64,000 nucleotides of DNA, from positions 2,020,001 to 2,084,000 of the forward strand of contig NZ_CP151587.1 of NCBI RefSeq assembly GCF_038396845.1, read 5' to 3'. Source of the stretch: Gymnodinialimonas sp. 57CJ19. GTDB lineage: Bacteria > Pseudomonadota > Alphaproteobacteria > Rhodobacterales > Rhodobacteraceae. Below the pieces are notes generated by a model. It ran no database searches. It saw only the letters and a list, made by a program, of their open reading frames with translations, and was not told the DNA's origin. This document shows, piece after piece, positions 29,178 to 49,147 of this stretch. A program made the position numbers and the translations under genes. Numbering within the stretch: position 1 is the stretch's first letter; each line of letters opens with the position of its first letter.

Positions 29178-29180
29178 GTT

Positions 29181-29203
29181 GTATTTGCCAAGATGAAGCA
29201 GGG
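29181..29203 (+). repeat. Recurrent post-stop motif (copy after MATE gene)
   Basis: Starting 3 nt after the MATE stop codon, this stretch contains TATTTGCCAAGATGAAGCAG. The same AAGATGAAGCAGGG core, in the same orientation relative to the gene, follows the small ribbon-helix-helix gene on the minus strand (23479-23500). It has no strong hairpin. Confidence 0.6.
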
Positions 29204-29262
29204 AGCCGGTGGGCGATCGCGTGCGTTTGCGCGTGGGGCCGGTGCGTGGTGCCAGTGGCGGA

Positions 29263-34713: not shown

Positions 34714-35270
34714 GGGGCGGCGTCCGCAAAGGGAGTGGCGGCGAGATTGGCGGCAATATCACCGTCGATTGGCACCGAGAACGTGTTCACGATGAAGCCC
34801 AGGGTGGAATAGAAACCGACCGTGGCGAACAGATCCAACACGCCTTGCGAAGTGACCAAAGATGTCAGCTCTGCCAAGGTTTGCGGGGTCAAACGGGCGT
34901 TGGCCAAAACCTCATCCACGGCGCCCGCGATTGTGGCGTCTTCCGGGTCCATCGCCTCGAGCGGGCCGCGCAGGGTCGCGATCCTGGCGTCCGAAAACCC
35001 CAAGGCGCGGGCCCGGTCCACATGGTGGGCCCATTCGTAATCGGAGTTCAATGCAACGGCGGCCCGCAGGATCACCACCTCGGACCGGACCCGGCCAAGG
35101 CTGGTGTCCAACACCACATGTTGCCGCAGGTTGGCCCAAGCCAGCACCAGAGCCGGATGATGGGCCATGGTGCGGTAAACATTAAGCTTTCCGGCAAAGG
35201 CATCGTCGAGATCGGCCAAAACATCGGGCCAAGCATTGGCGGGAATAGGGGCCAGATTGGGGTGTGTCAT
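34710..35270 (-). CDS. Carboxymuconolactone decarboxylase-like (AhpD-fold) protein
   Basis: The 186-aa all-helical protein carries RSEVVILRAAVALNSDYEWAHHVDRARALGFSDARI, the signature of the CMD/AhpD superfamily. The CxxC pair of peroxidase members is absent, as in the decarboxylase/lactonase-like branch. The reaction is unknown; ring-cleavage product metabolism is plausible from context. I use ATG 35270 with AGGA upstream; the longer frame lacks conservation. A palindromic TetR-type site lies 105 bp before the start. Confidence 0.83.
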   Translation of the reverse strand: MTHPNLAPIPANAWPDVLADLDDAFAGKLNVYRTMAHHPALVLAWANLRQHVVLDTSLGRVRSEVVILRAAVALNSDYEWAHHVDRARALGFSDARIATLRGPLEAMDPEDATIAGAVDEVLANARLTPQTLAELTSLVTSQGVLDLFATVGFYSTLGFIVNTFSVPIDGDIAANLAATPFADAAP

Positions 35271-35374
35271 GTCAGCTGTCCTGCGCGTGCGTGCCCGGTT
35301 GAGCAGTCGGGGTAAGCGGATCGGGGCGGTGAAATTGCGACTTGGCATAGCAATTATGCCCCATGGCTCGCCTT

Positions 35375-35396
35375 TTAGTTATAGGGTGATAAATAA
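35375..35396. promoter_or_regulatory. Candidate TetR operator, site 1
   Basis: The 9-4-9 palindrome has arms TTAGTTATA and GATAAATAA, two mismatches from the consensus TTATTTATC-N4-GATAAATAA shared by five sites between 35.3 and 47.1 kb. It lies between the divergent CMD-like gene and the FAD monooxygenase, 32 nt before the monooxygenase start. Confidence 0.75.
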
Positions 35397-35428
35397 GAAG
35401 GGAAGCGGCTAATCCAGAGGTAGGTTTC

Positions 35429-36622
35429 TTGACGCGAACAGTGGCAATTATCGGTGGCTCGATTGGCGGGCTGTTCGCGGCGGCGACGCTGCGAAATGCG
35501 GGGTGGAACGTCAAGGTGTTTGAGCGCTCCTCGGTCGCCTTGGCGGGGCGCGGGGCGGGGATTGTGACCCATCCCCAGTTGCTCGACGCGCTGACAGAGG
35601 TGGGGGCGGATACATCGGACCTTGGCGTACTGGTCTACGACCGGGTGGCCTTTGACCGCGACGGCGCCCCCTGCGCAACGCTGCCCTATCCGCAAATCGT
35701 GACGTCCTGGGACCGGATGCACCAGACGTTGCGCCGATTGATCCCGGACGCGTCTTACCACTTGGGCGAATCCTTGGTGAGCTATTCGGAGGATGCCGAG
35801 GGCGTCTCATTGACCTTTGCCAGCGGGGCAGAGGAGCGGGTGGATATGCTGGTGGGCGCCGATGGCTTCCGCTCGGCCGTGCGGGGGCAGCTTTTGCCCG
35901 AGGTGCAACCGCAATACGCGGGCTATGTCGTGTGGCGGGCCTTGGCCCCGGAGGCCGCCCTGTCGCCGCAAATTCGCGAACGTCTGTTCAACGTGTTCGG
36001 CCTGTTCCTTCCCACGGGTACGCAGATTGTGGGCTACCCGATTGCCGGGGAGAACAACGACCTGCGCCCCGGTCATCGGCGCTATAACTTTGTTTGGTAC
36101 GTGCCCTGTGCCGCCGATGATCTGGATGCGATGCTGACCGATGCAAGCGGCAAACGGCATGGCATTTCCATTCCGCCGCCACTGGTGCGCGATGAGGTCG
36201 TCGCCGAGATGGAGGCGAAGGCCGAGCAGGTCCTGCCCGATGTGTTCCGTCATGTGCTTCGCCAAAGCGAACGGCCCTTTTTCACGCCGATCTACGACCA
36301 CCTGTCCCCCGTTTTCGCGCGGGGCAGGGTGGCACTGGCCGGCGATGCCGCTTGCGTGGCGCGGCCCCATGTGGGGATGGGCGTGACCAAAGCGGCCCAA
36401 GATGCCCTGGCCCTTGCGCGGCATGTGAGCGGGGATGTGGAGGCGGGCCTACAGGCCTATTCGGAGGAGCGCGCGCGCGCCTCCCGCGCCGCCTACGCGC
36501 GGTCGCAGATGCTGGGGCAATTCATGGCGCAAGCGCCCGAACACGGCGACCCGATGGATGGGCGCCATAACCCCCATATGGCAGAGATCATGCGCCAGAC
36601 GGCCGTGGCGGATTTCGATTAG
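35429..36622 (+). CDS. FAD-dependent monooxygenase, 2,6-dihydroxypyridine 3-hydroxylase-like
   Basis: The 397-aa flavoprotein monooxygenase has the dinucleotide motif VAIIGGSIGGLFAA at its N-terminus, DMLVGADGFRSAVR near residue 140 (DG motif) and VALAGDAACVARPHVGMGVTKA near residue 300 (GD motif). The overall look is closest to 2,6-dihydroxypyridine 3-monooxygenases and related aromatic hydroxylases. The exact substrate is unknown. It appears to start at TTG 35429: AGAGG lies 8 nt before, no ATG is near, and the first residues MTRTVAIIGG fit the family. It overlaps the convergent GST gene by 4 nt. Confidence 0.88.
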   Translation: MTRTVAIIGGSIGGLFAAATLRNAGWNVKVFERSSVALAGRGAGIVTHPQLLDALTEVGADTSDLGVLVYDRVAFDRDGAPCATLPYPQIVTSWDRMHQTLRRLIPDASYHLGESLVSYSEDAEGVSLTFASGAEERVDMLVGADGFRSAVRGQLLPEVQPQYAGYVVWRALAPEAALSPQIRERLFNVFGLFLPTGTQIVGYPIAGENNDLRPGHRRYNFVWYVPCAADDLDAMLTDASGKRHGISIPPPLVRDEVVAEMEAKAEQVLPDVFRHVLRQSERPFFTPIYDHLSPVFARGRVALAGDAACVARPHVGMGVTKAAQDALALARHVSGDVEAGLQAYSEERARASRAAYARSQMLGQFMAQAPEHGDPMDGRHNPHMAEIMRQTAVADFD

Positions 36623-37203
36623 GCGCGCAGTTCCTCGTAAGATGTCATGACCACGGCGCGGTAGGCGGGCCGCGTTTGCAACTGTTCGTACCACCGCGCG
36701 ACCTGGGGGCTAAGGGGATCACACAGATCGCAGGCGCGCACCATCATCGCGCCTGCCGCGATATCGGCCATGCCAAAGCTGTCTCCGCCAAGCCACTGGG
36801 TCTTGCGCAATTGCCATTCCAGGGGTGCCACGGCGGCCAGAAACGTGGCCTTCAATGCCTCGGCATCCTTGGTGCGATCTGCCGGAGCGGTGCGGACAAG
36901 CTCATAGAACATTTGCAGAAAGGCTGGTTGCAGGGTGGAGGTGGTGTACTCCATCCACTGGTCAGCCAAGGGCGGCACACCCCCGGCAAGGTGCCGCAAA
37001 ATGGCATGGCTTTCCCACAAGGTCAGATCACCGTCTTGCAGCACCGGCACGCGGGGCACGGGGGTCATCACTTTGAACGTGGCTGTATCGGTGCCGCCGT
37101 ATTTCCCGCCAACAATATGATGGTCGAACGGCACTGCACTTTCGGACAAGGCCCACAGGACTTTCTGCACATTGACCGAACTTGGCCGCCCCCAAAGGAT
37201 CAT
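36619..37203 (-). CDS. Glutathione S-transferase family protein
   Basis: This 194-aa GST has the N-terminal thioredoxin-fold domain (MILWGRPSSVNVQKVLWAL, with the likely catalytic Ser pair, and VPRVPVLQDGDLTLWESHAI). The helical C-terminal domain contains LGGDSFGMADIAAGAMM. A strong ribosome site (GGAGGTGAT) precedes ATG 37203. It follows the cyclase gene by 11 bp, so the two are co-transcribed. GSTs in catabolic clusters often act as isomerases or detoxify intermediates; that role is inferred. Confidence 0.88.
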   Translation of the reverse strand: MILWGRPSSVNVQKVLWALSESAVPFDHHIVGGKYGGTDTATFKVMTPVPRVPVLQDGDLTLWESHAILRHLAGGVPPLADQWMEYTTSTLQPAFLQMFYELVRTAPADRTKDAEALKATFLAAVAPLEWQLRKTQWLGGDSFGMADIAAGAMMVRACDLCDPLSPQVARWYEQLQTRPAYRAVVMTSYEELRA

Positions 37204-37214
37204 CGGATCACCTC

Positions 37215-38171
37215 CTACTTGATCGCTTGCGGGTTGATCGGAGAGCCCGCCGCACCGGGAATATGCAGGGGAGGGGCGGTGAAAAGGAACTCGTAGACGC
37301 CATCCTCGGCGCAATCTTCGCCCAATTCTTTCAGATAGAAAATCTCTCCCATCGAAATGCCGATGGCGGGGATCACGACCCAGTGCCATGGCTGATTGGC
37401 CTCGTCCGTTTCATTGGGGCGCACCTCGCACCCCCAAGTGTCAGCGCAGATGGCGGCGATGTCGTGGGCTTTGATCCAGCGGGCGGTCTCGAACGACAGG
37501 CCCGGTGCATCGCCGCCCGCGTAGCCGGTCCAATCTTCGGCGGCGAGGCAGCGTTCCTGATGGCCGGTGCGCACGATCACAAAATCGCCCTTGCGGATTT
37601 CGACCCCCTGCGCCGCCGCGCAGCCATCCAGATCGGCGTTGGTGATGCCATAACCGTCCTCCAGACTATCGACATCCTTCCAGCGCGCGATATCCAGCAG
37701 CACGCCGCGCCCGACCATCTTGTCGCGCACATGCTCGATCCCCAACCGCTTCGCGCCGTTCACCGTCACATCGGTCGCGGGGTAGCCGTTGTACATCTGC
37801 TCATCCAGGAAGATATGACACAGCGCGTCCCACTGGGTGCTACCCTGACAGGGCAGGTTAATCGCGTCGTCGGCGTAGCGCAGGTACGCCTTGCCGTCGC
37901 CATCCTGTTCACCTTGGACCGCATCGGTGCCGGTGGCCAACATCTGATGGATCAGGTTCCATCGACCTCCAAACAGGCCGGATTGGATTTTCTCTTTCAG
38001 ATCAAGGCCAAGGGCAAAGGTCTTCCCCTTGCGAACCAGCTTTGCCGCCGCCACCACATCATCGGCTGTGACATTGTTCAACGTCCCGATTTGGTCGTCA
38101 TCGCCCCACCGTCCCCAGTTGGAGAGCTCTTTCGCGGTATCATAAATGTCCTGACGGGTCAGCTTGGCCAT
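37215..38171 (-). CDS. Cyclase-family metal-dependent hydrolase
   Basis: The 318-aa protein belongs to the putative-cyclase family that includes kynurenine formamidase and isatin hydrolase, which open amides or lactams with a bound metal. In those enzymes the motif is HxGTHxDxxxH; here it reads QGSTQWDALCH, with Gln replacing both His positions, as in a longer subgroup (STQWD). The rest (GVLLDIARWK, FVIVRTGHQE, CEVRPNE) matches. It starts the operon with the GST gene, 27 bp from a TetR-type operator. A ring- or amide-opening step is likely. Confidence 0.82.
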   Translation of the reverse strand: MAKLTRQDIYDTAKELSNWGRWGDDDQIGTLNNVTADDVVAAAKLVRKGKTFALGLDLKEKIQSGLFGGRWNLIHQMLATGTDAVQGEQDGDGKAYLRYADDAINLPCQGSTQWDALCHIFLDEQMYNGYPATDVTVNGAKRLGIEHVRDKMVGRGVLLDIARWKDVDSLEDGYGITNADLDGCAAAQGVEIRKGDFVIVRTGHQERCLAAEDWTGYAGGDAPGLSFETARWIKAHDIAAICADTWGCEVRPNETDEANQPWHWVVIPAIGISMGEIFYLKELGEDCAEDGVYEFLFTAPPLHIPGAAGSPINPQAIK

Positions 38172-38197
38172 GGTCCTGTCCTCCCAAACAGCGTTTC

Positions 38198-38219
38198 TTA
38201 ATGATCGAATGATAAATAG
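38198..38219. promoter_or_regulatory. Candidate TetR operator, site 2
   Basis: Arms TTAATGATC and GATAAATAG around a 4-nt centre. It lies between the divergent cyclase (26 nt away) and OsmC-TetR (41 nt away) units, so it would give autoregulation of the TetR gene. Confidence 0.75.
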
Positions 38220-38260
38220 ATGCTAGCGTTGGGTTAACGAACACGCAACAGGGGGGATCA

Positions 38261-38752
38261 ATGGCAGATCAATCAATCAAAACCTTTGACGTTGTCTTTG
38301 AAGGTAAGGGCGTCGCGTCGGGGAAAATGCGCAACGATATTTCGGTCGAATGGCCGATGATGAAAGAGACGTTTGAACTGGCCACCGATGAAGGCCCGTT
38401 CCATGGCGGTGACGGCACCGCGCCGCCGCCTCTGGCCCTGTTCACCGCCGCGCTGACGGGCTGCCTGATGACCCAGATCCGGGCCTTCGCCAAGCGCCTG
38501 AAGATCGACCTGCGCGGGGTGGAAGTGGACGCCCGCCTGCATTGGAAGGGCGAGCAGCAGGGCAACGATCCCTACGTGACTGCGCCCGTCGGTTTCTCGC
38601 TTGATGTGGCGTTGGACAGTGACGCCAGTGCCGATCAGCAACGCGCACTGCTGGACGCCGCCAAGAAAGGCTGCTTTCTAGAGCAGAGCCTTGCGGAGGG
38701 CGTTATCGTCGGCCACCGCCTGAAATTAGACAACGAATGGCATGATGCGTGA
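38261..38752 (+). CDS. OsmC-family protein
   Basis: The 163-aa product has the OsmC/Ohr fold pattern: PPPLALFTAALTGCLMTQIRAFAKRLKIDLRGVEVDA near residue 50-90, and a second Cys in KKGCFLEQSLAEG near residue 133. The two Cys form the peroxidase pair in this superfamily, used against organic hydroperoxides. In a catabolic cluster it could protect from oxygenase by-products. Its stop overlaps the TetR gene start by 4 nt (GTGA). Confidence 0.87.
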   Translation: MADQSIKTFDVVFEGKGVASGKMRNDISVEWPMMKETFELATDEGPFHGGDGTAPPPLALFTAALTGCLMTQIRAFAKRLKIDLRGVEVDARLHWKGEQQGNDPYVTAPVGFSLDVALDSDASADQQRALLDAAKKGCFLEQSLAEGVIVGHRLKLDNEWHDA

Positions 38753-39414
38753 CAAGTGAACCTGACCCGACCGCCCCGACCGAGCCCCCCAAGCAGCCGC
38801 GCCGTCGCCTGTCATCGGAGGAGCGTCGGCAAGAGTTTTTGACCAAAGCGATCGAGTTCTTCGCGCAGGAGGGGTTTGAATCCTCAACCCGGGAGTTGGC
38901 CCGCCGATTGGGGGTCACGCAGCCTTTGTTATATCGGTACTTCCCGTCAAAAAGTGACCTGATCGCAGAGGTTTACGATGCGGTCTACGTGAAGCGCTGG
39001 CAGGATGAATGGGGCACTTTGTTGCGCGACCGCTCGCGTCCATTGCGGGAGCGTCTGGTGGAATTCTACGACGCCTATACCGAGGTCGTCTTTCACAACG
39101 ACTGGATGCGCATCTTCCTTTTTTCGGGCCTGAAAGGCGTCGATATAAACCGCCGCTACATGCAGTTGGTCCGCGAGCGCATTCTGGAGCCGATCCTGCA
39201 AGAGATTCGTTTTGACGCGGGATTGGATTCGCTTGACCCCTCCGATGAAGAGGTCGAGGCCGCCTGGATCATGCACGGCGGCATTTACTATTACGGCGTG
39301 CGGACGCTGATCTACGAAGTCTCGATCCTGAACAACAAATCCTTCGTGATCGAGACGGCGATTGATAGCTTCCTGCTGCAAATTCCTTCGATCAGGGATG
39401 CCGCATCGAATTGA
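38749..39414 (+). CDS. TetR-family transcriptional regulator
   Basis: The 221-aa regulator has an N-terminal HTH (FLTKAIEFFAQEGFESSTRELARRLGVTQPLLYRYFPSKSDLIAEVY, about residues 30-75). Its C-terminal ligand domain resembles regulators of the TetR_C type with FHNDWMRIFLFSGLKG. It starts at GTG 38749, overlapping the OsmC stop. It is the only regulator gene inside the 34.7-51 kb catabolic cluster. Five matching palindromes lie in the cluster's promoters, one of them before its own operon, so I propose it represses the whole set and senses a pathway compound. Confidence 0.9.
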   Translation: MTSEPDPTAPTEPPKQPRRRLSSEERRQEFLTKAIEFFAQEGFESSTRELARRLGVTQPLLYRYFPSKSDLIAEVYDAVYVKRWQDEWGTLLRDRSRPLRERLVEFYDAYTEVVFHNDWMRIFLFSGLKGVDINRRYMQLVRERILEPILQEIRFDAGLDSLDPSDEEVEAAWIMHGGIYYYGVRTLIYEVSILNNKSFVIETAIDSFLLQIPSIRDAASN

Positions 39415-39455
39415 TTTTAAACGGTTCTATTGGTTTTCCAATTTCTCCTTGCTAG

Positions 39456-39477
39456 TTATTTATAGATTGATAAATTA
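39456..39477. promoter_or_regulatory. Candidate TetR operator, site 3
   Basis: Arms TTATTTATA and GATAAATTA around a 4-nt centre, 38 nt before the molybdenum-hydroxylase FAD-subunit start. With site 5 it is among the two best matches to the consensus. Confidence 0.8.
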
Positions 39478-39515
39478 GCCCTATTGGCGCATTGCGCGGC
39501 TTTGGGGGGGAAGAC

Positions 39516-40334
39516 ATGAAAGCGGCAGAGTTTCTTTATGAACGACCTGCTTCCGTTGCAGAGGCGCTGGCGCTGCTGGCGGACGAAGACCGCGACGCGA
39601 CGCCTTTGGCAGGCGGGCAAAGCCTGATGCCGATGATGAATTTCCGCCTGGCGCAACCGGGCACCTTGGTCGATCTTTCGGCGTTGGAGGACCTGCGCGG
39701 CATCACCCTGAGTGACGGGATGGTGCGCATCGGCGCGATGACCCGCTATGTGGAATTGGTCCGCTCTGGGGTGGTGGCCGATCACGCGCCGTTGTTGGCG
39801 ATGGCTTTGCCCCACATCGCCCACGCCGCCGTGCGTAACCGGGGCACCATTGGCGGCAGCGTTGCCTTGGCTGATCCGGCAGCCGAAATGCCCGCGCTGT
39901 TGCTGGCGTTGGATGCGCAGATCACGGTGCAATCGGCCGAAGGCACCACCACCCACGGGGCCACGGACTTCTTCCTTGGCATGTATGAGACCGCGTTGGA
40001 GGAGGGGGAGCTTGTGTCTGAGATCGCCATTCCAGTTGCCGCGCCGACCGACCGCTTCGCCTTTTATGAATTGGCCCGGCGCCACGGCGATTACGCGATG
40101 GCCGGTGTCGCTGTGGCGCGGCGCGACAACGCCCACCGCGTCGCGTTTTTCTCGATATCTGACAGGGCGTTACGGGCCTTCGACGCGGAAGAGGTGTTGG
40201 ACAAGGGCGGCAGTGTGATCGACGCCGTCGCCGCCTTGGCCGAGCTTCCGTACTCCGGCGACCTCAATGCCGCCATCCCCACGAAAAAGCACCTGTCAGG
40301 CGTCGTCCTGACCCGCGCGTTGGAGGCGTTGTGA
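39516..40334 (+). CDS. Molybdenum hydroxylase, FAD-binding medium subunit (CoxM-like)
   Basis: The 272-aa subunit passes electrons from the iron-sulfur subunit through FAD. The FAD-binding motifs are ATPLAGGQSLMPMMNFRLA near residue 30 and RNRGTIGGSVALADPAAEMPALLLAL near residue 110. It is first of three adjacent subunit genes (medium-small-large) of a xanthine dehydrogenase/CO dehydrogenase-family enzyme. ATG 39516 is taken; an upstream in-frame start is less likely. A TetR-type operator lies just before it. Confidence 0.93.
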   Translation: MKAAEFLYERPASVAEALALLADEDRDATPLAGGQSLMPMMNFRLAQPGTLVDLSALEDLRGITLSDGMVRIGAMTRYVELVRSGVVADHAPLLAMALPHIAHAAVRNRGTIGGSVALADPAAEMPALLLALDAQITVQSAEGTTTHGATDFFLGMYETALEEGELVSEIAIPVAAPTDRFAFYELARRHGDYAMAGVAVARRDNAHRVAFFSISDRALRAFDAEEVLDKGGSVIDAVAALAELPYSGDLNAAIPTKKHLSGVVLTRALEAL

Positions 40335-40337
40335 GCC

Positions 40338-40808
40338 ATGACTGACACTCAAACAATCTCTGTCACCGTGAACGGCGAGACCGCAAGCGCCGCCGTGCCG
40401 GTGCGCCAGAACCTGGTGGATTTTCTGCGCAACACTCTGGGTCTGACGGGCAGCCACGTGGGCTGTGAGCACGGTGTGTGCGGCGCCTGTACGCTGGAAG
40501 TGGACGGCGCCATGGTGCGCGGTTGCCTGATGCTTGCGGTGCAAGCGGACGGCGCAAAAGTCACCACGATCGAGGGCTACGGCGACCGGGCCGCGGCACT
40601 GCGAGCGGCGTTTATCGACCGCAATGCCTTGCAATGCGGCTATTGCACCCCGGGCATGTTGGCCAGCGCACTGGAATATGTGGAAGGCGGCGGCGGAGCC
40701 GATCGCGCCGCCATCCGAGAGCACCTTTCCGGCAACTATTGCCGCTGCACCGGCTACCAATCCATTGTCGATGCCGTGTGCGACGTGATCGAGGGGGAAA
40801 GCTCATGA
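40338..40808 (+). CDS. Molybdenum hydroxylase, 2Fe-2S small subunit (CoxS-like)
   Basis: The 156-aa subunit holds two 2Fe-2S clusters. The plant-type cluster ligands are in GCEHGVCGACTLEVDG and the following Cys. The second cluster ligands are in CGYCTPGM and NYCRCTGY. The length and motif order are standard. It starts 3 nt after the FAD subunit and overlaps the large subunit by 4 nt. Confidence 0.96.
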   Translation: MTDTQTISVTVNGETASAAVPVRQNLVDFLRNTLGLTGSHVGCEHGVCGACTLEVDGAMVRGCLMLAVQADGAKVTTIEGYGDRAAALRAAFIDRNALQCGYCTPGMLASALEYVEGGGGADRAAIREHLSGNYCRCTGYQSIVDAVCDVIEGESS

Positions 40809-43180
40809 GCGGCCCTCTGACGATTTTTGACAAGCCCAATTCCCTTATCGGCAAGCCCGTTGACCGCCCCGATGCCAAGCGTCTCTTGCAGGGGCGCGGC
40901 AAGTTTGTGGACGATATCCAACTGCCCCGCATGGTCCACGCGGCCTTTGTGCGGGCGCCCGTGGCCCATGGGCGGATCGTGTCGATTGATCTTGATGAGG
41001 CCCGCGCCGTGCCCGGCGTCATCGCCATCTATACCGGGGCTGATCTGGCCGATCATGTGGAGCCTTACGTGGGCGTGCTCAGCCATATGGTGGGCCTGCG
41101 CTCAGCGCCGCAAATGCCTTTGGCCATCGATACCGTCCGCTGGACCGGAGAGCCGGTGGTGATGGTTGTCGCCAGCTCTCGGGCTGTGGCCGAGGACGCG
41201 GCGGCGCTGGTCTTCGTGGACATCGAAGACCTGCCCCCCGCCACAGATATGGAGCGCGCGTTGGAACCTGACGCGCCGGTGATCCACCCGGATTTCGGCA
41301 ATAACCTTGCCTGGGAACGCACCGTTGAGGCGGGCGATCCAGACGCCGCTTTTGCCCGCGATGACGTGAGTGTGGTCGAGCGCACGTTCCGTTTCGGTCG
41401 CCACACCGGCGTGACCCTGGAGACCCGCGCCAGCGTCGTGGATTATGACCCTTCCGAGGACACGCTGACCTGCCACTACTCGGGCCAAGCGCCTCATATG
41501 ATGCAATTTATCTTCGCCAAGCACTTGGGCTTGCCGGAAGAAAACGTGCGCGTGATCTCGAATGATGTGGGCGGGTCTTTCGGGATCAAGATCCACACCT
41601 ATGGCGATGAGATTGCCACGGCAGCGGCCGCGAAACTGCTGCAACGCCCGGTGAAGTTTGTGGCGGATCGGCTGGAAAGCTTCCTTACCGACATTCACGC
41701 CCGTGACCATGTGGTGCACGGGCGCATCGCAGTCACCCCAGAGGGGGAAATCGCGGCACTTGCCTTTGATGACATCACCGGCATCGGCCCTTATTCGATG
41801 TATCCGCGCACCTCGGCGATAGAGGCGAACCAGATCCTGAACCTGACCGGGGCGCCCTATGCGCTGGAGAACTACCGCGCCAACGCCAAGGTGGTATTCC
41901 AGAACAAGAACCTGATGTGCCAATATCGCGCTGTGGGGCACCCGATTGCCATGGCGGTGGCCGATGGCCTGCTAGAGGAAGCGGCCCATAAGATCGGCAT
42001 GGATGTGGTCGAAATCCGTCGCCGCAACCTTGTTAAAGATGACGCCTATCCCTGCACCTCGGCCACGGGGATGAAGCTGGATGACCTGAGCCATCACAAG
42101 ACGCTGGATAAGCTGATCGAGACGATGGATTACGACGCCAAAAGGGCGGAACACGCGGCGCTGCGCGCAGAGGGTATCCACCGCGGCCTTGGCCTCGTTT
42201 CGATGATCGAGGTCACGAACCCCAGCCCGATGTTCTACGGCATCGGCGGCGCGCCGATTGCCAGCCAGGACGGCTCTACCATCCGGCTGGAGGCGGGCGG
42301 GGCGATCCATGTGTCGTCCTCGGTCACCGAGCAGGGGCAGGGCACCAACACGATCCTTGCGCAGATCGCGGCCGGGGTTTTTGGCGTCGCAATGGACCGG
42401 GTGAAGGTGACGACCGGTGACACGAAAACCACGCCTTACGGCGGTGGAACATGGGCGTCACGGGGCGCCGGGATCGGAGGGGAGGCGACACTGCAAGCCG
42501 CCCACGCCCTGAAAGAACAGGTGTTGGACATCGCGGGCGTGATCCTGCAAGCCAAGCCGGAAGCCCTTGATATTGTTGAAGGTCATGTCACCGACAAGGA
42601 CGGCACCCAACGCATGAGCCTAAGCGATCTGGCCCGCACCGTTTACTACCGAGGCAATGAATTGCCTTCAGACATGACACCGGAACTCGTGGCCACCCGC
42701 CACTACCGCGTCACCGATTTTCCCTTCGTTTTCACCAATGCCGCCATGGCCGCCGAGGTCGAGTTGGACCCGGACACGGGATTTGTAAAAATCCTCAACT
42801 TCTGGGCGGTGGAAGATTGCGGCCGGGTGATTAACCCCAAGCTGGTCGACGAACAAATTCGCGGGGGTGTGATCCAAGGCATCGGGGGCGCGTTCTACGA
42901 GGAGTGCATCTACTCCGAGGACGGCCAGTTTGAGAACGCGACCATGGCCGATTACCTTGTGCCGATGGCGTTTGAGATGCCCGACATCACCATTGCCCAC
43001 GTGGAAACGCCCACCAAAACCAGTGTCCTTGGTGCCAAAGGCGCAGGCGAGGCCGGGACCGGCGGCGCGCCGGCCGCTTTGTTGAACGCGGTGAACGATG
43101 CGCTTCGCCCCTTGGACGCACAAATCCACCAAATGCCCATGACGCCCGAGCGCATTCTAAAAGCGCTCGGCACTGTTTAG
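40805..43180 (+). CDS. Molybdenum hydroxylase, large catalytic subunit (CoxL-like, not CO dehydrogenase)
   Basis: The 791-aa subunit binds the molybdopterin-cytosine dinucleotide cofactor and carries out hydroxylation with water. It has GRGKFVDDIQLPRMVHAAFVRAP at the N-terminus, NDVGGSFGIK near 240 and the C-terminal LGAKGAGEAGTGGAPAAL with the catalytic Glu. Form I CO dehydrogenase carries a VAYRCSFR loop; here the equivalent reads CQYRAVGHP, so CO oxidation is unlikely. Hydroxylation of an N-heteroaromatic ring or an aldehyde is more likely. No chaperone genes (coxD-G or xdhC) are adjacent, so maturation must use genes elsewhere. Confidence 0.92.
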   Translation: MSGPLTIFDKPNSLIGKPVDRPDAKRLLQGRGKFVDDIQLPRMVHAAFVRAPVAHGRIVSIDLDEARAVPGVIAIYTGADLADHVEPYVGVLSHMVGLRSAPQMPLAIDTVRWTGEPVVMVVASSRAVAEDAAALVFVDIEDLPPATDMERALEPDAPVIHPDFGNNLAWERTVEAGDPDAAFARDDVSVVERTFRFGRHTGVTLETRASVVDYDPSEDTLTCHYSGQAPHMMQFIFAKHLGLPEENVRVISNDVGGSFGIKIHTYGDEIATAAAAKLLQRPVKFVADRLESFLTDIHARDHVVHGRIAVTPEGEIAALAFDDITGIGPYSMYPRTSAIEANQILNLTGAPYALENYRANAKVVFQNKNLMCQYRAVGHPIAMAVADGLLEEAAHKIGMDVVEIRRRNLVKDDAYPCTSATGMKLDDLSHHKTLDKLIETMDYDAKRAEHAALRAEGIHRGLGLVSMIEVTNPSPMFYGIGGAPIASQDGSTIRLEAGGAIHVSSSVTEQGQGTNTILAQIAAGVFGVAMDRVKVTTGDTKTTPYGGGTWASRGAGIGGEATLQAAHALKEQVLDIAGVILQAKPEALDIVEGHVTDKDGTQRMSLSDLARTVYYRGNELPSDMTPELVATRHYRVTDFPFVFTNAAMAAEVELDPDTGFVKILNFWAVEDCGRVINPKLVDEQIRGGVIQGIGGAFYEECIYSEDGQFENATMADYLVPMAFEMPDITIAHVETPTKTSVLGAKGAGEAGTGGAPAALLNAVNDALRPLDAQIHQMPMTPERILKALGTV

Positions 43181-43198
43181 CCCCTTGAAGGAGACCCC

Positions 43199-43819
43199 AT
43201 GACAACGCTTTGTTACGCCAAGAAAACCTGCTCGATCGGCATTCATGTTCTGTTAGAAGAAATCGGCATTCCTTATGATCTGAAGATCGTGGACTTCTCG
43301 AAGAAAGAGCAGAAGACGCCGGAGTATCTGGCGCTTAACCCCAAGGGAAAGGTTGCCGCATTGGTGCGCGATGACGGAAGTGTGGTTACGGAATACGCGG
43401 CAATCGCCATGTATCTGGCGCTGGAGCATCCCGAGAAAAACCTGATGCCCACGGACACCGAAGGCATGATCCGCACGCTAGAGGCGATGGATTTCATTAT
43501 TGGCACCGTCCACATGCTGTCGTGGCGCATGTTCCGACGCCCCGATGCGTACTCGGACATCCCCGAGGCGGTGGAACAGCTGAAGGTGCGCGGGAAAGAG
43601 GCCATGATGGCCGCGTTCGACGTGGTGGATGAGCAGTTGGAGGGCAAGGAGTGGCTGATGGGCGATTACTCCATCGCCGATACCGCGCTCTATTATAACG
43701 AATACTGGGCCGTAGATGTGGCCGGTTGGGATCTGCCGCCGAACGTGCGTGCCCATTACGAGCGGATGAAGCAGCGCCCCGCGGTGCAAGCAAACCGGAA
43801 GCTGGAAGGCGTGGCTTAA
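43199..43819 (+). CDS. Glutathione S-transferase family protein
   Basis: The 206-aa GST begins MTTLCYAKKTCSIGIHVLLEEIG, with a CSIG-type active site as in beta-class and maleylacetoacetate-isomerase-like GSTs. LNPKGKVAALVRDDGSVVTEYAAI (cis-Pro loop) and WLMGDYSIADTALY in the helical domain follow. AAGGAGA precedes the ATG. It lies 18 bp after the large hydroxylase subunit, so it is the fourth gene of that operon. It is distinct in sequence from the GST at 36.6 kb. Confidence 0.9.
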   Translation: MTTLCYAKKTCSIGIHVLLEEIGIPYDLKIVDFSKKEQKTPEYLALNPKGKVAALVRDDGSVVTEYAAIAMYLALEHPEKNLMPTDTEGMIRTLEAMDFIIGTVHMLSWRMFRRPDAYSDIPEAVEQLKVRGKEAMMAAFDVVDEQLEGKEWLMGDYSIADTALYYNEYWAVDVAGWDLPPNVRAHYERMKQRPAVQANRKLEGVA

Positions 43820-43904
43820 GCCGTCTACCATAGAGCAATGGCAGCGCCGGGCAGGGATGCCCGGCGTTTTGCGTTCAGCCATGGGGGCAGAGGAGGAGCC
43901 GAGA

Positions 43905-44288
43905 GTGCAACAGCATGAAGCGGGGTGTCTGTGCGGGAAGCTACGGGTCGCGGCGACAGGGGCACCGGTGCGGGTCGGGCTGTGCCATTGCTTGGACTGC
44001 CGCAAGCACCATGGGGCGTTGTTCTACGGGGCGGCGATATGGCCAAAGGATGCCGTGCAGATCAAAGGGGACTTCGGCGCGTATCAGGGGCGGTGCTTTT
44101 GCCTAACCTGCGGGTCATCTGTTTTTGCGCAATCGGGGGACGAGACAGAGGTTCACCTTGGCGCGTTCGACCAGCCGGATCGTTTTCGCCCCACTTATGA
44201 AGTCTGGGTTGAGCGGCGCGAAGCGTGGCTGCCGCCCTTCCCGGAAATGACCGGGTTCCAGCGCAATCGCGAGAACCCGGACGGCTGA
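43905..44288 (+). CDS. GFA-family (CENP-V/GFA domain) zinc protein
   Basis: The 127-aa protein has the Cys clusters of this fold: GCLCGKLRV, GLCHCLDCRKHHGA and CFCLTCGSSVFA, which bind two zinc ions. Family members include glutathione-dependent formaldehyde-activating enzyme, but most have unknown substrates. I prefer GTG 43905, with GAGGAG about 7 nt before, because the family normally begins just before the first Cys motif; an ATG at 43857 would add 16 residues. It is convergent with the cupin gene. Confidence 0.82.
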   Translation: MQQHEAGCLCGKLRVAATGAPVRVGLCHCLDCRKHHGALFYGAAIWPKDAVQIKGDFGAYQGRCFCLTCGSSVFAQSGDETEVHLGAFDQPDRFRPTYEVWVERREAWLPPFPEMTGFQRNRENPDG

Positions 44289-44291
44289 CGA

Positions 44292-44825
44292 CTACTTGGC
44301 CTCTAGATCGCCAGTTTCATTCACCCGCAGACCCGTGGCATGGCTTGCCTCCAGCACGCTGGGGGCCCATTCGACGCGACCGCCGTCGCCGGTGGTCTCT
44401 TTCGAGCCGATGATTGCCATCAACATCGCTGGAGCGTCCCCGATATTGCGGAACCCGCGATAGATGCCGGGCGGGAAGGAGATGACGTCGAAGGGCTCAA
44501 TCTCGATTTCCTTGTCGCCATCCTCGCCCCAAACCGCAGCCCAACGGCCGGTAAGGGGGATGAAGACCTCGATCGTTTCATGGGCATGAAGGGCCGCGCC
44601 TTTGCCGGGCTCTGCTCCCACATAGGTGATCCCGAAGTAGCGCGAATCCACGATGGAGGGGGCAAGCCCCGCATCCTCGGTCACGCCGCGCCCGATCACG
44701 TTGTAGATATCGCGCTCATACTCCGGAATCCGGGTGTCTACGAACGCCTGGGGTGAGGCCTTGAGGTCCCGATAGCGGGCCACGCGCGCCTGCATTTCCT
44801 CTACGCTGATGTCCTTGATCTCCAT
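44292..44825 (-). CDS. Cupin-domain protein
   Basis: The 177-aa protein has one cupin barrel. Metal-ligand motif 1 is GAALHAHETIEVFIPLTGRWAAVWG (two His and a Glu) and motif 2 is PFDVISFPPGIYRGFRN, with the usual second-motif His missing. It may be an isomerase, dioxygenase or binding protein. AGGAGATTAGGA gives a good start at 44825. It is the last gene of a minus-strand operon with the deacetylase-like gene and the TRAP binding protein. Confidence 0.82.
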   Translation of the reverse strand: MEIKDISVEEMQARVARYRDLKASPQAFVDTRIPEYERDIYNVIGRGVTEDAGLAPSIVDSRYFGITYVGAEPGKGAALHAHETIEVFIPLTGRWAAVWGEDGDKEIEIEPFDVISFPPGIYRGFRNIGDAPAMLMAIIGSKETTGDGGRVEWAPSVLEASHATGLRVNETGDLEAK

Positions 44826-44827
44826 TC

Positions 44828-45712
44828 CTAATCTCCTGTTACCCGTGTCAATTCAGTCCGATACCAATCGCCAAGCTGGCTGGCGGTCATCCATTGCGTG
44901 CCCTCATGGCCGCCGACGTAATCCAGCAGTTCCTCCAGATATTTGATCCTGTGGGGCACGCCGGTGATGTAGGGATGCACCGAGATCGCCATGACGCGCG
45001 GACTGGTCGCGCCCTCGGCATAGAGGCGGTCAAACTGGTCGCGGCCCCGGGTCAGGAACTCGTCCGAGCGGTGGCCTTGCAGGGCGTAGACGGCGATGTC
45101 GTTGGTCTCGACCGAATAGGGCAGGGTGGTGACGCGGCCAAACGGGGTGGCGACGTCTTGGGGCAGGTCATCAATCACCCAATCGGCCACATATTCCACC
45201 CCATGTTTGCGCAGTAGATCCAGCGTCTCTTCGGTTTCGGTCAGCCCGGGGCTTTCCCAGGCGCGAGGGCGGGTGCCGCAGAAGGATTCGATTTGATCCA
45301 AGGCCTTGGCAATCGCGCCCTCTTGATCGTCCAGCCGGTGCATGGGGCCTTGCAGATGGCCGTGGCCCATGAACTCCCATCCGGCCTCAAGTGCGGCACC
45401 CGCAACACGGGGATAGCTGGCGCAGACGTTGCCGTTGATCGCCAGGGATGCGGGAATGCCGCGGTCTACAAGCGCCTGATATTGCCGCCAAAAGCCGGAT
45501 CTCATGCCGTATTCGTGCCAGCTCCAATTCGGGACATCGGGTAGCAGGGGCTGGCCCATTGGGGGCGGCAACACCGTGCGGGGCATCGGGTTTTCGATGC
45601 GCCATTCCTCGACATTGACGATCACCCAAACGGCGACGCGTTTACCGTCTGGAAGGCGCAGTTTCGGGCGATCAACAATAGCTTGATAGGGGATGCGATC
45701 GGACAGGGCCAT
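44828..45712 (-). CDS. Polysaccharide deacetylase-fold hydrolase (PuuE/allantoinase-like)
   Basis: The 294-aa protein has the NodB fold seen in PuuE allantoinases and cyclic imide hydrolases: VAVWVIVNVEEWRIENPMPR near residue 25, LAINGNVCASYPRVAGAALEAGWEFMGHGHLQGPM near 100, and ISVHPYITGVPHRIKYLEELL near 245. That branch hydrolyses C-N bonds in small cyclic ureides or imides rather than chitin. The exact substrate is unknown. It ends 2 nt before the cupin gene start. I use ATG 45712 with GGAG upstream. Confidence 0.85.
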   Translation of the reverse strand: MALSDRIPYQAIVDRPKLRLPDGKRVAVWVIVNVEEWRIENPMPRTVLPPPMGQPLLPDVPNWSWHEYGMRSGFWRQYQALVDRGIPASLAINGNVCASYPRVAGAALEAGWEFMGHGHLQGPMHRLDDQEGAIAKALDQIESFCGTRPRAWESPGLTETEETLDLLRKHGVEYVADWVIDDLPQDVATPFGRVTTLPYSVETNDIAVYALQGHRSDEFLTRGRDQFDRLYAEGATSPRVMAISVHPYITGVPHRIKYLEELLDYVGGHEGTQWMTASQLGDWYRTELTRVTGD

Positions 45713-45757
45713 AACGCGCACTCCGGTGCAGAATGTTGGGGGGAGGGGGATGGAAAA

Positions 45758-45779
45758 GGGCGGCCCGTAAAGGCCGCCC
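45758..45779 (-). terminator. Hairpin between dctP-like and deacetylase genes
   Basis: An 8-bp GC stem (GGGCGGCC / GGCCGCCC) with a 6-nt loop is followed on the minus strand by TTTTCC. It sits 15 nt after the TRAP binding-protein stop. It probably acts as a partial terminator or 3' stabiliser that gives more binding protein than downstream enzymes. Confidence 0.7.
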
Positions 45780-45794
45780 CGATCAACGTCGTGC

Positions 45795-46871
45795 TTACTC
45801 GACGGTGTAGGTGTACGGCCATTCGTAGCCGGTTTCATCCACCGCGCTGAGGTAGGCTTGCATCACCTCGGTCCCCGGCATTCCGCGGCTATCGGCCTCG
45901 GCTGCTTGCTGGCCGGGGAATGAGGCGAGGGATTCGGCCCATCCGCTGCGCACCTCTGGTTCGATTTCCGAGATCATGGCCCCGGCTTCGGCCAGCCCTT
46001 CAAGACCCGAAACCTGACGCGCGTTCAGCGATGTACCCGCCTGTGCCTCGTAGGCCGCTCCGACTTCAAGGATGATCGCCTGCACGTCTTCCGGCAACCG
46101 CGAGAGACTGCGTTCGTTCATGGTCAAGGCGTTTACGCCCATCGCGCCAAACCCGATCAAGGTATAATGGGGCGCGGGTTCGTAGAAGCGGAAGCCAAGG
46201 TAGGCAGAGGGGAACATCAGCCAGCCATTATAGACGCCCGTTTGCAGCGACAGATAGCCGTCAGGCAGCGTCGATTGCACCGGTTGCGCGCCGGCAAATT
46301 CCAACCATGGCAGGTTGGGACCCGCACCGCCGATCTTCACGCCTTGCAGATCTTCGACCGTCTCCCAAGGGTCGGTGGTGCCAAGGTGGTAGTTGTCCCA
46401 CCCGTGCAGGCCCAAAAGCACTTGGCCGTATTCCGCGGTGAACTGTTCCTCTAGCCAAGGCACCTGATCGTAGACGGCACGAGCGGCTGCCATCTGCTGT
46501 TCAGAATCCTGCGGGCCGAAGGGCGCGTAGTAGGGGAAGTTGTGCAAGAACAGCTTGGCGGGCTCGAAGCACATGCAATAGGCGCCGATGTCGAGGATGC
46601 CGTTTTCAACAGACTCCAATGTCTCCGCCACGCCCGCGATGGAGCCGCCGTAGCCTTCAACGAATGTGATGGTGTGATCGGTTTCTTCTTCCACACGCCG
46701 CACGACCTCGGGGACAAAAAAGTCCGCTACGTCAGAGACATAGACCGTCGGCCCGTTGGGGTGCCCGGCGCCGATGCGCAGGGTGAAATCATCCGCCAGC
46801 GCCGCGCCCGAGCCTAATGTCAGTGCGGCCGCCGCAAGGGTCGTCCCTCGTAAAAAAGCCAGTGTTGCCAT
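45795..46871 (-). CDS. dctP: TRAP transporter periplasmic binding protein
   Basis: The 358-aa precursor has a signal peptide (residues 1-26, cleaved near ALAD). The mature protein follows the TRAP solute-receptor plan: LRIGAGHPNGPTVYVSDVADFFVPEVVRRVEEET, GDxLxxQ-like gating elements, ETVEDLQGVKIGGAGPNLPWLEFAGA and LQTGVYNGWLMF. TRAP receptors usually bind organic acids through an Arg. GGAGGAG precedes the ATG. It is divergent from the membrane subunit genes, with two TetR-type operators in between. Confidence 0.9.
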   Translation of the reverse strand: MATLAFLRGTTLAAAALTLGSGAALADDFTLRIGAGHPNGPTVYVSDVADFFVPEVVRRVEEETDHTITFVEGYGGSIAGVAETLESVENGILDIGAYCMCFEPAKLFLHNFPYYAPFGPQDSEQQMAAARAVYDQVPWLEEQFTAEYGQVLLGLHGWDNYHLGTTDPWETVEDLQGVKIGGAGPNLPWLEFAGAQPVQSTLPDGYLSLQTGVYNGWLMFPSAYLGFRFYEPAPHYTLIGFGAMGVNALTMNERSLSRLPEDVQAIILEVGAAYEAQAGTSLNARQVSGLEGLAEAGAMISEIEPEVRSGWAESLASFPGQQAAEADSRGMPGTEVMQAYLSAVDETGYEWPYTYTVE

Positions 46872-46948
46872 TGTTTTCTCCTCCCATTGATGGCGATAGT
46901 TCGTCAGCGACCCGCTGTTGTTTTGGTCCGTCCGTTCGGATGCTTCCC

Positions 46949-46970
46949 TTATTTATCGGTCGCTAATCTA
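46949..46970. promoter_or_regulatory. Candidate TetR operator, site 4 (half-conserved)
   Basis: The left arm TTATTTATC is perfect; the right arm GCTAATCTA is degraded (four mismatches). It lies 77 nt before dctP, in the divergent region shared with dctQ. Spacing to site 5 is 68 bp centre to centre, about 6.5 helical turns. Confidence 0.6.
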
Positions 46971-47016
46971 GCGTACTTCCTCACAAAACGGCGCATCGGT
47001 CAAGCTTTCTGGCTCA

Positions 47017-47038
47017 CTATTTATCGACCGCTAAATAA
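47017..47038. promoter_or_regulatory. Candidate TetR operator, site 5
   Basis: Arms CTATTTATC and GCTAAATAA, each with one mismatch to the consensus, lie 70 nt before the dctQ start. Together with site 4 this doubles the operator at the transporter promoters. Confidence 0.78.
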
Positions 47039-47108
47039 CAGCTTGACCCACGGCGCTGATCCAGTAGCGTTTCCAAAATTGTCGCAGGCAACGGACGGGG
47101 AGGGTCTA

Positions 47109-47633
47109 ATGGGCGTGCCGATCAAACTATCACGGGGCATACACTTGGTGTCGGCTTTTTGGACTATGGCGCTGGCGTTGCTTATCTTTTGCGACGTCAT
47201 GGGTCGTAAGTTCCTGGGCACGCCGGTGCCTGGAACGAAAGAGATTTTGCAAAACTCGGTGGTCTCCATCGCCTTTTTGCAGCTGCCCCTTGCGATCTAT
47301 TCCGGCTCCATGTTGCGGACCTCGGTGTTTGCCGATGCGGTGCCAGTGGGCCTGCGTCGTATCCTGCGCACGATATCGGCGCTTCTGGGGATCACGGTTT
47401 TTGTGGCCCTTGTCTGGAGCACGAGCGACTCGTTCTTCGACGCCTACCGGATCGGCGAGTACGAGGGCGAAGGGTCGCTGCGCGTGCCCACATGGCCCGT
47501 GCGGGGCGTCGTTCTGGTGATGTCGGGCTTCGTCGCCTTGGCGTATCTGCAAATGATCGTGCTCGACTGGATGGGCAAGCTGGAAAACGAAATTGAAGCG
47601 CCGGGAGCGATGGCTCCGGCACACGTGGATTGA
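47109..47633 (+). CDS. dctQ: TRAP transporter small membrane subunit
   Basis: The 174-aa protein has four transmembrane helices, as in DctQ subunits: residues about 10-30, 45-65, 85-108 and 133-155, with GTPVPGTKEILQNSVVSIAFLQLPLA as the conserved second-helix region. I use ATG 47109, preceded by GGGAGGG; the frame upstream runs through the promoter region with its operators. The large subunit follows after 13 nt. Confidence 0.88.
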   Translation: MGVPIKLSRGIHLVSAFWTMALALLIFCDVMGRKFLGTPVPGTKEILQNSVVSIAFLQLPLAIYSGSMLRTSVFADAVPVGLRRILRTISALLGITVFVALVWSTSDSFFDAYRIGEYEGEGSLRVPTWPVRGVVLVMSGFVALAYLQMIVLDWMGKLENEIEAPGAMAPAHVD

Positions 47634-47646
47634 GGGGAGAGCCGTA

Positions 47647-48969
47647 ATGGGAGGTGATATCGTCCTGTGGATGCTGGGTCTCTTGATCCTGTTGATCTTG
47701 CTGGGCACGCATATTGGCGTGGCCTTGGCCGTCTGTTCGGGCCTTGGTGTCTATCTGATGCTGGGCAGCTTCGAGGCCGCAATCTCGATCCTTGGCAACA
47801 CGGCCTACGAGGCGATCCGAAAGGACGTTTTCGTGGTGATCCCGCTGTTTGTCTTGATGGGAGATTTCATATCTAGGTCCGGGGCGGCGGGGGATTTGTA
47901 CCGCATCTGCGACCGTAGCCTCAAGCGTCTGCCGGGACGTCTGGCCATTGCGACCATTGCCGGGAACACGGTTTTTGCGGCTGTAACGGGCGTGTCCATT
48001 GCCGCCGCTGCCGCCTTTTCGCGCATCGCTTATCCCGAGATGAAAAAGGCAGGCTACAAACGCACCTTCGCGTTGGGGGCCGTGGCCGGTTCGGCCTGTC
48101 TGGGGATGTTGATCCCGCCGTCGGTCTTGTTGATCGTCTGGGCGATCCTGACGGAATTGAGCGTCGGGGCCTTGTTCATCGCCGGCGTCATCCCCGGTAT
48201 CATGCTGGCCCTGATGTTTGCTGCTTTCGTCATCATCTCGGTCGCCCACAAGCCGGAGATCGCCCCGTCGTTCCAAGCGGAACTGGTGCCGCTGACCAAG
48301 CAAGAGGTGCGGTCCGAGTTGATCGGCGGCTTGGGCATTCTGGGGCTTATCATGTTGGTGATCGGCGGCATCTGGAAGGGGTTCTTCACCCCGACCGAAG
48401 CGGCAGGATTTGGCGCGATTGGCGCGTTCATCATTGGCCTGATCAAAGGCATGCGCGGCAAGGAAATCCTGGAGGCAATCTATCAGGCGGGCCGCACGAC
48501 GGCGCCGATCATGTTCCTGCTGATCACCGCCCAGATGTATTCGCGGCTTCTGGCGATTGGCGGCGCGGTGCCGTTCATTCAGGGGTTGTTCTTCAACCTT
48601 GGGGCCGAGCCGTGGATGATCATCGGATTGATGATGCTGATCTGGATCGTGCTTGGCATGCTGGTCGATTCCGTGTCGATCATCCTTTTGACGGTGCCGA
48701 TCTTCTCTCCCATTGCGGTGGTGCTGGGGATTGACCCGGTGGCCTTCGCGATCTTCGGCATCCTGGTGATCGAGGCGGGCCTTCTGACGCCCCCGTTCGG
48801 ATTGCTTGTCTACACGGTCAAAGGCGCAGTGCCGGACCCCTCCGTCACGTTGGGAGAGATCTTTCTGGGCTCTACGCCCTATTTCATCCTGATCCTGTTG
48901 GCGGCGTTGATTGTGTTGTTCATCCCCAGCCTTGCCACCTGGCTGCCGGAAGTCATGTTCGGACGATAG
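47647..48969 (+). CDS. dctM: TRAP transporter large membrane subunit
   Basis: The 440-aa permease has about twelve transmembrane segments and the DctM signatures: FVVIPLFVLMGDFISRSGAAGDLY near residue 60, GVSIAAAAAFSRIAYPEMKKAGY near 120 and GSACLGMLIPPSVLLIVWA near 150. It couples sodium entry to uptake of the solute delivered by DctP. It ends with a good terminator, so the downstream luciferase-like gene probably has its own promoter. Confidence 0.93.
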   Translation: MGGDIVLWMLGLLILLILLGTHIGVALAVCSGLGVYLMLGSFEAAISILGNTAYEAIRKDVFVVIPLFVLMGDFISRSGAAGDLYRICDRSLKRLPGRLAIATIAGNTVFAAVTGVSIAAAAAFSRIAYPEMKKAGYKRTFALGAVAGSACLGMLIPPSVLLIVWAILTELSVGALFIAGVIPGIMLALMFAAFVIISVAHKPEIAPSFQAELVPLTKQEVRSELIGGLGILGLIMLVIGGIWKGFFTPTEAAGFGAIGAFIIGLIKGMRGKEILEAIYQAGRTTAPIMFLLITAQMYSRLLAIGGAVPFIQGLFFNLGAEPWMIIGLMMLIWIVLGMLVDSVSIILLTVPIFSPIAVVLGIDPVAFAIFGILVIEAGLLTPPFGLLVYTVKGAVPDPSVTLGEIFLGSTPYFILILLAALIVLFIPSLATWLPEVMFGR

Positions 48970-48995
48970 CCGCCCTGGGCGTTTGATCCCTGCTT

Positions 48996-49024
48996 AAAAG
49001 CCCCGCCAACACCGCGGGGCTTTT
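48996..49024 (+). terminator. Terminator after dctM
   Basis: Stem AAAAGCCCCGC / GCGGGGCTTTT (11 bp) with a 7-nt loop; the 3' arm ends in TTTT. It separates the TRAP genes from the luciferase-like gene. Confidence 0.88.
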
Positions 49025-49147
49025 GCAAATTGGGTGCCCGAAGTCGGGCTATCAACTTTTCTAATGGAAGCGGCGATTCCTTTTGATTTTCCCTACAGGC
49101 GCTGCGGCACATATCCTGAACCTGTAACTGGAAGCGGAGACTGCACC

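Follow-up and report, generated by a model that had tools for sequence, protein, structure and literature searches.

Regulation of the cluster and its candidate operators

Does a palindrome that recurs between the genes of one cluster mark a single regulon, and is the TetR-family protein encoded in the same cluster its regulator? This question is raised by a locus in a stretch of 64,000 nucleotides from Gymnodinialimonas sp. 57CJ19 (Rhodobacteraceae; contig NZ_CP151587.1, positions 2,020,001 to 2,084,000; hereafter the window, from whose first letter all positions are counted). The sequence comparisons described below indicate that about 19 genes (33763-51051) very probably constitute a local regulon under an autoregulated TetR repressor that would be released by a ligand.

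Five 22-mers were considered as operators: operator 1 (35375..35396) between the CMD/TDT genes on the minus strand and the FAD monooxygenase gene (FMO) on the plus strand, operator 2 (38198..38219) between the cyclase/GST genes (minus) and the OsmC/TetR genes (plus), operator 3 (39456..39477) upstream of the Mo hydroxylase operon, operator 4 (46949..46970) on the DctP side of the dctP/dctQ intergenic region, and operator 5 (47017..47038) on its DctQ side. The coordinates given for them in a preliminary description of this DNA were exact and all five are intergenic, with 4 base pairs (bp) between position 9 and G14 in each. The palindrome printed there, TTATTTATC-N4-GATAAATAA, corresponds to five real sites but stands only as a consensus, since no exact copy is present and operators 1 to 5 have 2, 3, 2, 4 and 2 mismatches, respectively. 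When the window was searched with up to 3 mismatches to this palindrome, 4 matches were obtained (expected 0.00; 0 of 100 shuffles reached 4), and the site at 46949 was not returned because of its 4 mismatches. A matrix made from the five sites scored them at 30.1-37.8 bits, against 6.2 for the best other place in the window; only the score gap carries information, because the matrix was trained on the same sites.

The motif had been proposed to be restricted to the cluster, and a scan of the whole genome (3,861,607 bases), the check suggested for it, agreed with this: a degenerate pattern with up to 3 mismatches matched only these five places, where about 0.24 matches were expected under independent bases, and the reversed control pattern gave one forward match. 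Since the pattern was drawn from the sites, their own matching is no test, whereas the absence of other matches is.

Conservation of the sites and their movement with genes

Besides the main group of related loci, we distinguished group B (15 loci), in which a TetR with a Gln-Ser recognition helix stands beside a related Mo hydroxylase, mostly with a different TRAP transporter, and group C (5 loci), which has TRAP genes and some or all of the luciferase-like, hydrolase and GST genes, with no Mo hydroxylase within 6 kilobases (kb). For conservation and REARRANGEMENT, 23 main-group loci (window included, duplicates excluded) were mapped with the window proteins and a symmetric matrix. A site was present at most 300 bp upstream of the cyclase gene in 21 of 21 loci, of DctP and of DctQ in 19 of 19 each, of the Mo hydroxylase gene MoM in 21 of 22, and of FMO in 16 of 19. 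In the 22nd MoM locus, L109, the site is at 7290, ahead of the first MoM match; MoM and DctM each fall into two matches at that locus, a pattern suggestive of frameshifts or errors of assembly.

The sites were also found to follow their genes through rearrangements: FMO is relocated behind PuuE with its site retained (L104, L106 and L108), the TRAP genes are inverted together with their sites (L105), and so are the Mo genes with theirs (L112 and L113). In genome G234 (L110 and L111) about 22 kb separate the Mo-gene site from the TetR gene, and FMO there has no site scoring at least 12. Shared flanking descent alone can hardly explain sites that follow rearranged genes. De novo motif search without the earlier matrix recovered this palindrome in 11-12 main-group loci at the promoters of FMO, MoM, cyclase, DctP and DctQ (no good site in the FMO run for L036, L109 and L110), and its group-B list comprised 8 of the 15 loci; upstream of GST1 in group C the same search gave no credible motif (20.7 versus 17.7 shuffled). 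A count of perfect palindromes around TetR genes was too noisy for use. The idea that operators 4 and 5 stand in a fixed helical phase was rejected, since the spacing of the sites, where DctP and DctQ have two between them, ranges from 59 (L111) to 141 bp (L029).

Placement of the operators on putative promoters

Alphaproteobacterial promoters follow the consensus CTTGAC/CTATAT. A plain promoter scan gave 4 promoter-like sites versus 5.8 in shuffles and thus says nothing by itself. The putative -35 and -10 elements were placed from conservation. TTGAC begins 15-21 nucleotides before the cyclase-proximal operator in 12 of 21 loci (shuffle mean 0.13) and 28-40 nucleotides before the DctP-proximal operator in 15 of 19 (0.24), CTTG directly adjoins the MoM operator in 17 of 21 (0.76), and TTGAC or TTGAG begins 0-8 nucleotides after the DctQ-proximal operator in 17 of 19 (0.27). 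The window is among the nine loci that lack the cyclase-proximal TTGAC; the scan placed TTAACC-17-TATCAT there, with TATCAT within operator 2. At FMO only TCGC, which is not a known core element, recurred upstream (10 of 16, shuffle mean 1.1), and no core promoter element could be placed at operator 1.

With these placements, operators 2 and 3 would cover core promoter elements (for operator 2, the putative cyclase -10 TATCAT), operator 4 would cover the putative dctP start, and operator 5 would stand directly upstream of the putative dctQ -35, TTGACC. Overlap of an operator with a -10 or a start agrees with repression through occlusion. In the TetR family the usual mode is release by a compound of the pathway. 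We envisage that a TetR dimer would bind the five 22-bp palindromes and repress seven transcription units, including its own, until released by the substrate or an intermediate of the encoded pathway. The OsmC gene (38261..38752, plus strand; PF02566, and above the cut-off of NF041052) is the first of this unit, and its stop is overlapped over 4 bases by the start of the TetR gene (38749-39414, plus strand, 221 amino acids), so that operator 2 should control the regulator as well.

At operator 5 either repression or activation would be conceivable. It is unlikely, though of all alternatives the one that survives best, that TetR binds the sites and yet activates some promoters, chiefly that of dctQM, where operator 5 abuts the -35 from upstream; the TTGAC or TTGAG that recurs just behind the DctQ-proximal operator agrees with such a role, but the dctP, cyclase and Mo hydroxylase operators lie on or after the putative core promoter, as suits a repressor, and repression is the common mode of the family.

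Covariation of recognition helix and operator

At 55 TetR loci, the region 250 bp upstream of the Mo-hydroxylase FAD-subunit gene was searched with the motif frame giving no credit at positions 6/17, except that 14 loci without a FAD-subunit gene within 6 kb were not scored. The TQPL(L/I)YRYF helix was accompanied by T6/A17 in 22 of 22 loci, whereas the TQSL(L/I)F(N/K/R)YF helix was accompanied by G6 in 15 of 15 and by C17 in 13 (T in L127, G in L130). The best sites of these 37 Gln-Pro and Gln-Ser loci had p 0.005-0.015 against 200 shuffles each. No site of the motif frame was detected for the TetRs with the SHAVIYRHF helix (L040, L042 and L116; p 0.08-0.90), which also stand beside a related Mo hydroxylase, or for L134 (SQALIF; p 0.10). 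Both TetR kinds occur in one genome, G153. L114 combines a Gln-Pro helix with a T-type operator, and its Mo subunit, on a long branch, clusters with the SHAV loci outside the main clade of Gln-Pro loci (100/100). In group C, all five loci combine Gln-Pro helices with TTTATC half-sites at DctP. L131 has a Gln-Ser helix and no Mo hydroxylase beside TetR.

PMC7102968 describes that Arg28 and Gln38 of classical TetR hydrogen-bond operator bases +2 and +3 and that specificity depends on Gln38, Pro39 and Thr40, and PMC2723105 describes Pro39 as touching two thymidines in adjacent base pairs. Counted outward, G14, A15, T16 and A17 are operator +2 to +5, so that pair 6/17 (T:A to G:C) would be, by these accounts, one whose thymine Pro39 touches. 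The residue changing between the groups is the Pro39 equivalent, Pro59, along with Tyr62 (to Phe) and Arg63. The mapping was made by alignment and spacing, and the contacts are by analogy with classical TetR. By this analogy the GATAA half-site would be read with Arg48 (like Arg28) on G and Gln58 (like Gln38) on A, while Pro59 and Tyr62 (like Pro39 and Tyr42) would contact the next T-rich pairs, the half-sites standing 4 bp apart. Arg48, Gln58, Pro59 and Tyr62 are invariant across 34 aligned relatives.

The two halves of an operator are not always equal: one good half-site is kept, and the other deviates at a position that is conserved and depends on the promoter. C9 is replaced by A in the FMO sites (16 of 16, operator 1 of the window among them) and the MoM sites (18 of 21, with operator 3) and in neither the cyclase (0 of 33) nor the TRAP sites (0 of 37). 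When the TRAP sites are read toward DctQ, C stands in place of A15 in 35 of the 37 (operators 4 and 5 included), as it does in none of the 16 FMO, 21 MoM and 33 cyclase sites; the sites of one class are related by descent. In the contact scheme, the pair damaged in one half-site would be the Arg-read one at the FMO and Mo hydroxylase promoters and the Gln-read one at the dctP and dctQ promoters. These asymmetries either tune affinity promoter by promoter or serve embedded promoter letters, TATAAT being found inside the MoM operators of L029, L104 and L107. We put forward tentatively, with somewhat less than an even chance of being right, that this TetR subfamily holds a natural specificity switch, in which Gln-Pro...Tyr-Arg versus Gln-Ser...Phe-(Asn/Lys/Arg) would select TTATC versus TGATC (or AGATC) and so separate two paralogous Mo-hydroxylase regulons, together with promoter-specific half-site damage that would give a fixed, evolutionarily kept order of release.

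The same covariation bears on whether the palindromes serve a different regulator, TetR being a mere neighbour. LysR-type genes adjoin the cluster in several relatives, but the site letters vary with the TetR helix, no LysR was found among the scanned open reading frames of the window cluster, and the sites are kept in G234, where TetR and the Mo genes lie about 22 kb apart; we regard this explanation as very improbable. The LysR-type genes themselves (L031:2350-3264 and L029:4216-5103, identified by Pfam; L112:10078-11025 and L123:2842-3768, identified by similarity) stand beside luciferase-like or TRAP genes and are possibly a second regulator.

Co-occurrence of the TetR gene and the motif

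The other check proposed for the regulon, whether orthologues of the TetR gene and the motif occur together, turned out favourably in both the genus and the family genome sets. TetR was matched at E 1e-20 or better in 18 of 147 genomes, own included. All five TetR-positive congeners (G002, G004, G007, G011 and G012) carry 3-6 forward matches, and in each of the seven congeners without TetR at this level (G001, G003, G005, G006, G008, G009 and G010) the matches total one at most. Presence of the cyclase follows that of TetR (6 of 13 genus genomes, own included), and the cluster is hence present or absent as a whole.

In 394 family genomes, own included, TetR was found at 1e-40 in 41, of which 16 were at 1e-60 or better, a set defined by this E value alone (a group-B TetR, in G079, also has 49% identity). 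Genomes were called motif-rich when the larger strand count was at least 4 and the reversed control sum at most 1, a threshold picked after the table had been seen and applied by eye. By this definition 12 of the 394 genomes were motif-rich, all 12 of them carrying TetR at E 1e-60 or better, and none of the 378 others was (Fisher p 7e-20, for genomes that are not independent). The remaining 4 of the 16 TetR genomes (G234, G237, G253 and G455) have 2-5 forward matches, G237 failing through a control count of 3.

It is next to inconceivable that the sites have no dedicated protein and represent parts of promoters or UP elements or some AT-rich repeat: they are AT-rich and intergenic, and many matches occur in G045, G205 and G350, but the reversed control is also frequent in those three genomes and adds up to 0-1 in the 12 motif-rich genomes with TetR, the half-site letters and symmetry recur in the de novo runs, genus members without TetR are also without sites, and the own-genome, family and genus motif scans contradict it.

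Genome specificity, co-occurrence, covariation of helix and operator, and sites travelling with their genes all support, as far as sequence can, the earlier proposal that the sites form the regulon of the cluster's own TetR. Several observations count against it. FMO is without a site in L027, L036 and L109 (of 19) and in L110, and operator 5, upstream of the -35, is not at the commonest position for a repressor. The three shuffled controls of each de novo set amount in effect to one, because the routine reseeded the random generator. The covariation represents few independent changes, the 15 Gln-Ser rows forming one clade (100/100). At least one pattern match is found in 171 of the 394 family genomes, mostly a single, chance-like one, so that a single match carries no meaning; three forward matches occur in G063, where TetR is absent at 1e-40; and two congeners carry one or two extra matches outside the cluster.

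Extra-cluster matches in TetR-positive genomes (G012:C1:1427164, G012:C1:2090069, G004:C1:1376562, G268:C2:38713 and G268:C89:14631) are possibly additional regulon members or chance. In L139 (G268:C2), remote Mo-hydroxylase matches stand beside a palindromic site. L035 (G077) has TetR-OsmC and cyclase-GST with two sites in 19.9 kb, and since the genome has five forward matches, the remaining cluster may be located elsewhere.

Genes of the cluster and the encoded pathway

Comparison with Pfam, NCBIfam and PDB gave about 19 genes in seven units, and profile comparison confirmed the earlier gene assignments around the sites, from CMD/TDT to dctQM. The units placed at the sites were right, but the boundary had been drawn too narrowly: two conserved genes beyond dctQM on the same strand, overlooked before, would extend the regulon to 51051, for a total span of 33763-51051. 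No operator was found between DctM and the luciferase-like gene in the window scan, and the luciferase-like and hydrolase genes are counted in on the assumption of a common operon and because relatives share this neighbourhood.

From left to right, the cluster comprises a TDT/SLAC1 transporter (33763-34713, minus strand, PF03595) and a CMD-family protein (34710-35348, minus, PF02627), followed by FMO (35429..36622, plus), whose nearest solved relative is 2,6-dihydroxypyridine hydroxylase. A GST (36619 to about 37203) and the PF04199 cyclase (37215-38171), both on the minus strand, precede OsmC and TetR. The FAD, FeS and Mo subunits of the Mo hydroxylase (39516-43180, plus; the first start read as ATG 39516, the mechanical open reading frame starting at 39492) are followed, in the same unit and on the same strand, by a second GST (43199-43819) and a GFA protein (43857-44288). 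On the minus strand lie a cupin (44292-44825), a PuuE/polysaccharide-deacetylase-like protein (44828 to about 45712) and DctP (45795-46871), and on the plus strand DctQ (47109-47633), DctM (47593-48969), a luciferase-like monooxygenase (about 49148-50257) and a PcaD-like hydrolase (50254-51051). The neighbours are a YedK/HMCES-type protein on the left and a CobB/CobQ-type protein on the right. Elsewhere in the window, 28001-30000 shows a strong strand asymmetry (GC skew 0.207, AT skew -0.274), far beyond that of the remaining window.

The cyclase is the most conserved cluster protein in most relatives mapped. It carries QGSTQWDxxxH at the position of the family metal-site motif, HxGTHxDxxxH, and its sole solved relative at E 0.001 is the uncharacterised protein 5ibz.

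The nearest solved relatives of the Mo subunit, the luciferase-like protein and the PuuE-like protein are quinoline 2-oxidoreductase, 3,6-diketocamphane 1,6-monooxygenase and PuuE allantoinase, respectively; the hydrolase passes the curated PcaD cut-off (259.7 versus 255.85 bits), and in relatives a flavin reductase, a beta-keto acid cleavage enzyme and a redoxin are found in addition. To judge from such similarities, the enzymes would hydroxylate and open a heteroaromatic ring, assisted by proteins that handle glutathione and peroxide, and a TRAP system would supply the compound; the pathway is probably the catabolism of a heteroaromatic compound taken up by this transporter, with about an even chance that the substrate is N-heteroaromatic. 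The nearest solved relatives of DctP are too remote (best 50 bits) to reveal the substrate. Caffeine C-8 oxidation, homarine and trigonelline were weighed as candidates, and none was adopted. A search of an open-licence library returned no paper that evidently describes a gene set of this kind.

Without recourse to earlier annotation, the analysis links about 19 genes of an uncharacterised pathway of uptake and oxidation with a single regulator, which is also a handle for finding the substrate. Exact predicted operators are available for a gel shift or a biosensor, and the two TetR kinds form a natural pair for testing how the recognition helix of a TetR-type protein shifts specificity; the proposed switch and the fixed operator asymmetries are the parts that merit bench work.

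Comparison with known TetR-family regulators

The regulator contains the TetR_N helix-turn-helix domain (PF00440, 51.5 bits versus a cut-off of 24, E 8.8e-14). Its predicted structure is all-helical, with ten helices and no strands (pLDDT 87.3), fits the family architecture of about 200 residues with a C-terminal domain for ligand binding and dimerization, and places a helix at the recognition helix, 58-64 (QPLLYRY). The family trait of a palindromic operator near the regulator's own promoter would be represented by operator 2 before OsmC-TetR.

None of the named NCBIfam TetR equivalogs reaches its cut-off, although 13 families match at E 0.001 or better. FasR and the acrylate regulator AcuR, both TetR regulators of catabolic clusters, have the TetR N-terminal domain in common with it, but its scores of 38.5 bits against the FasR profile (cut-off 330) and 28.6 bits against that of AcuR (cut-off 247) are far too low for membership in those groups to be claimed. 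The classical TetR profile NF010319 likewise gives 31 bits versus a cut-off of 265.

Nevertheless, Thr27-Arg28, Gly35, Gln38-Pro39 and Leu41-Tyr42, tabulated for classical TetR in PMC2723105, have counterparts here in Thr47-Arg48, Gly55, Gln58-Pro59 and Leu61-Tyr62, with the same helix pattern and the same spacing. Outward from its centre the operator has G, A, T and A in the half-site, in agreement with G+2 and A+3 of the classical operator in PMC7102968. The CTAT core that PMC2723105 gives as common to TetR and AmtR stands here as TTAT. On the other hand, classical Thr40, Trp43 and His44 are replaced by Leu60, Arg63 and Tyr64. The half-sites are separated by 4 bp rather than the 3 of tetO, and the spacing is thus not of the tetO type. 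Classical TetR serves tetracycline export, whereas this TetR sits in a catabolic cluster, and the kind of system is in itself an ordinary one, a local TetR-controlled catabolic regulon.

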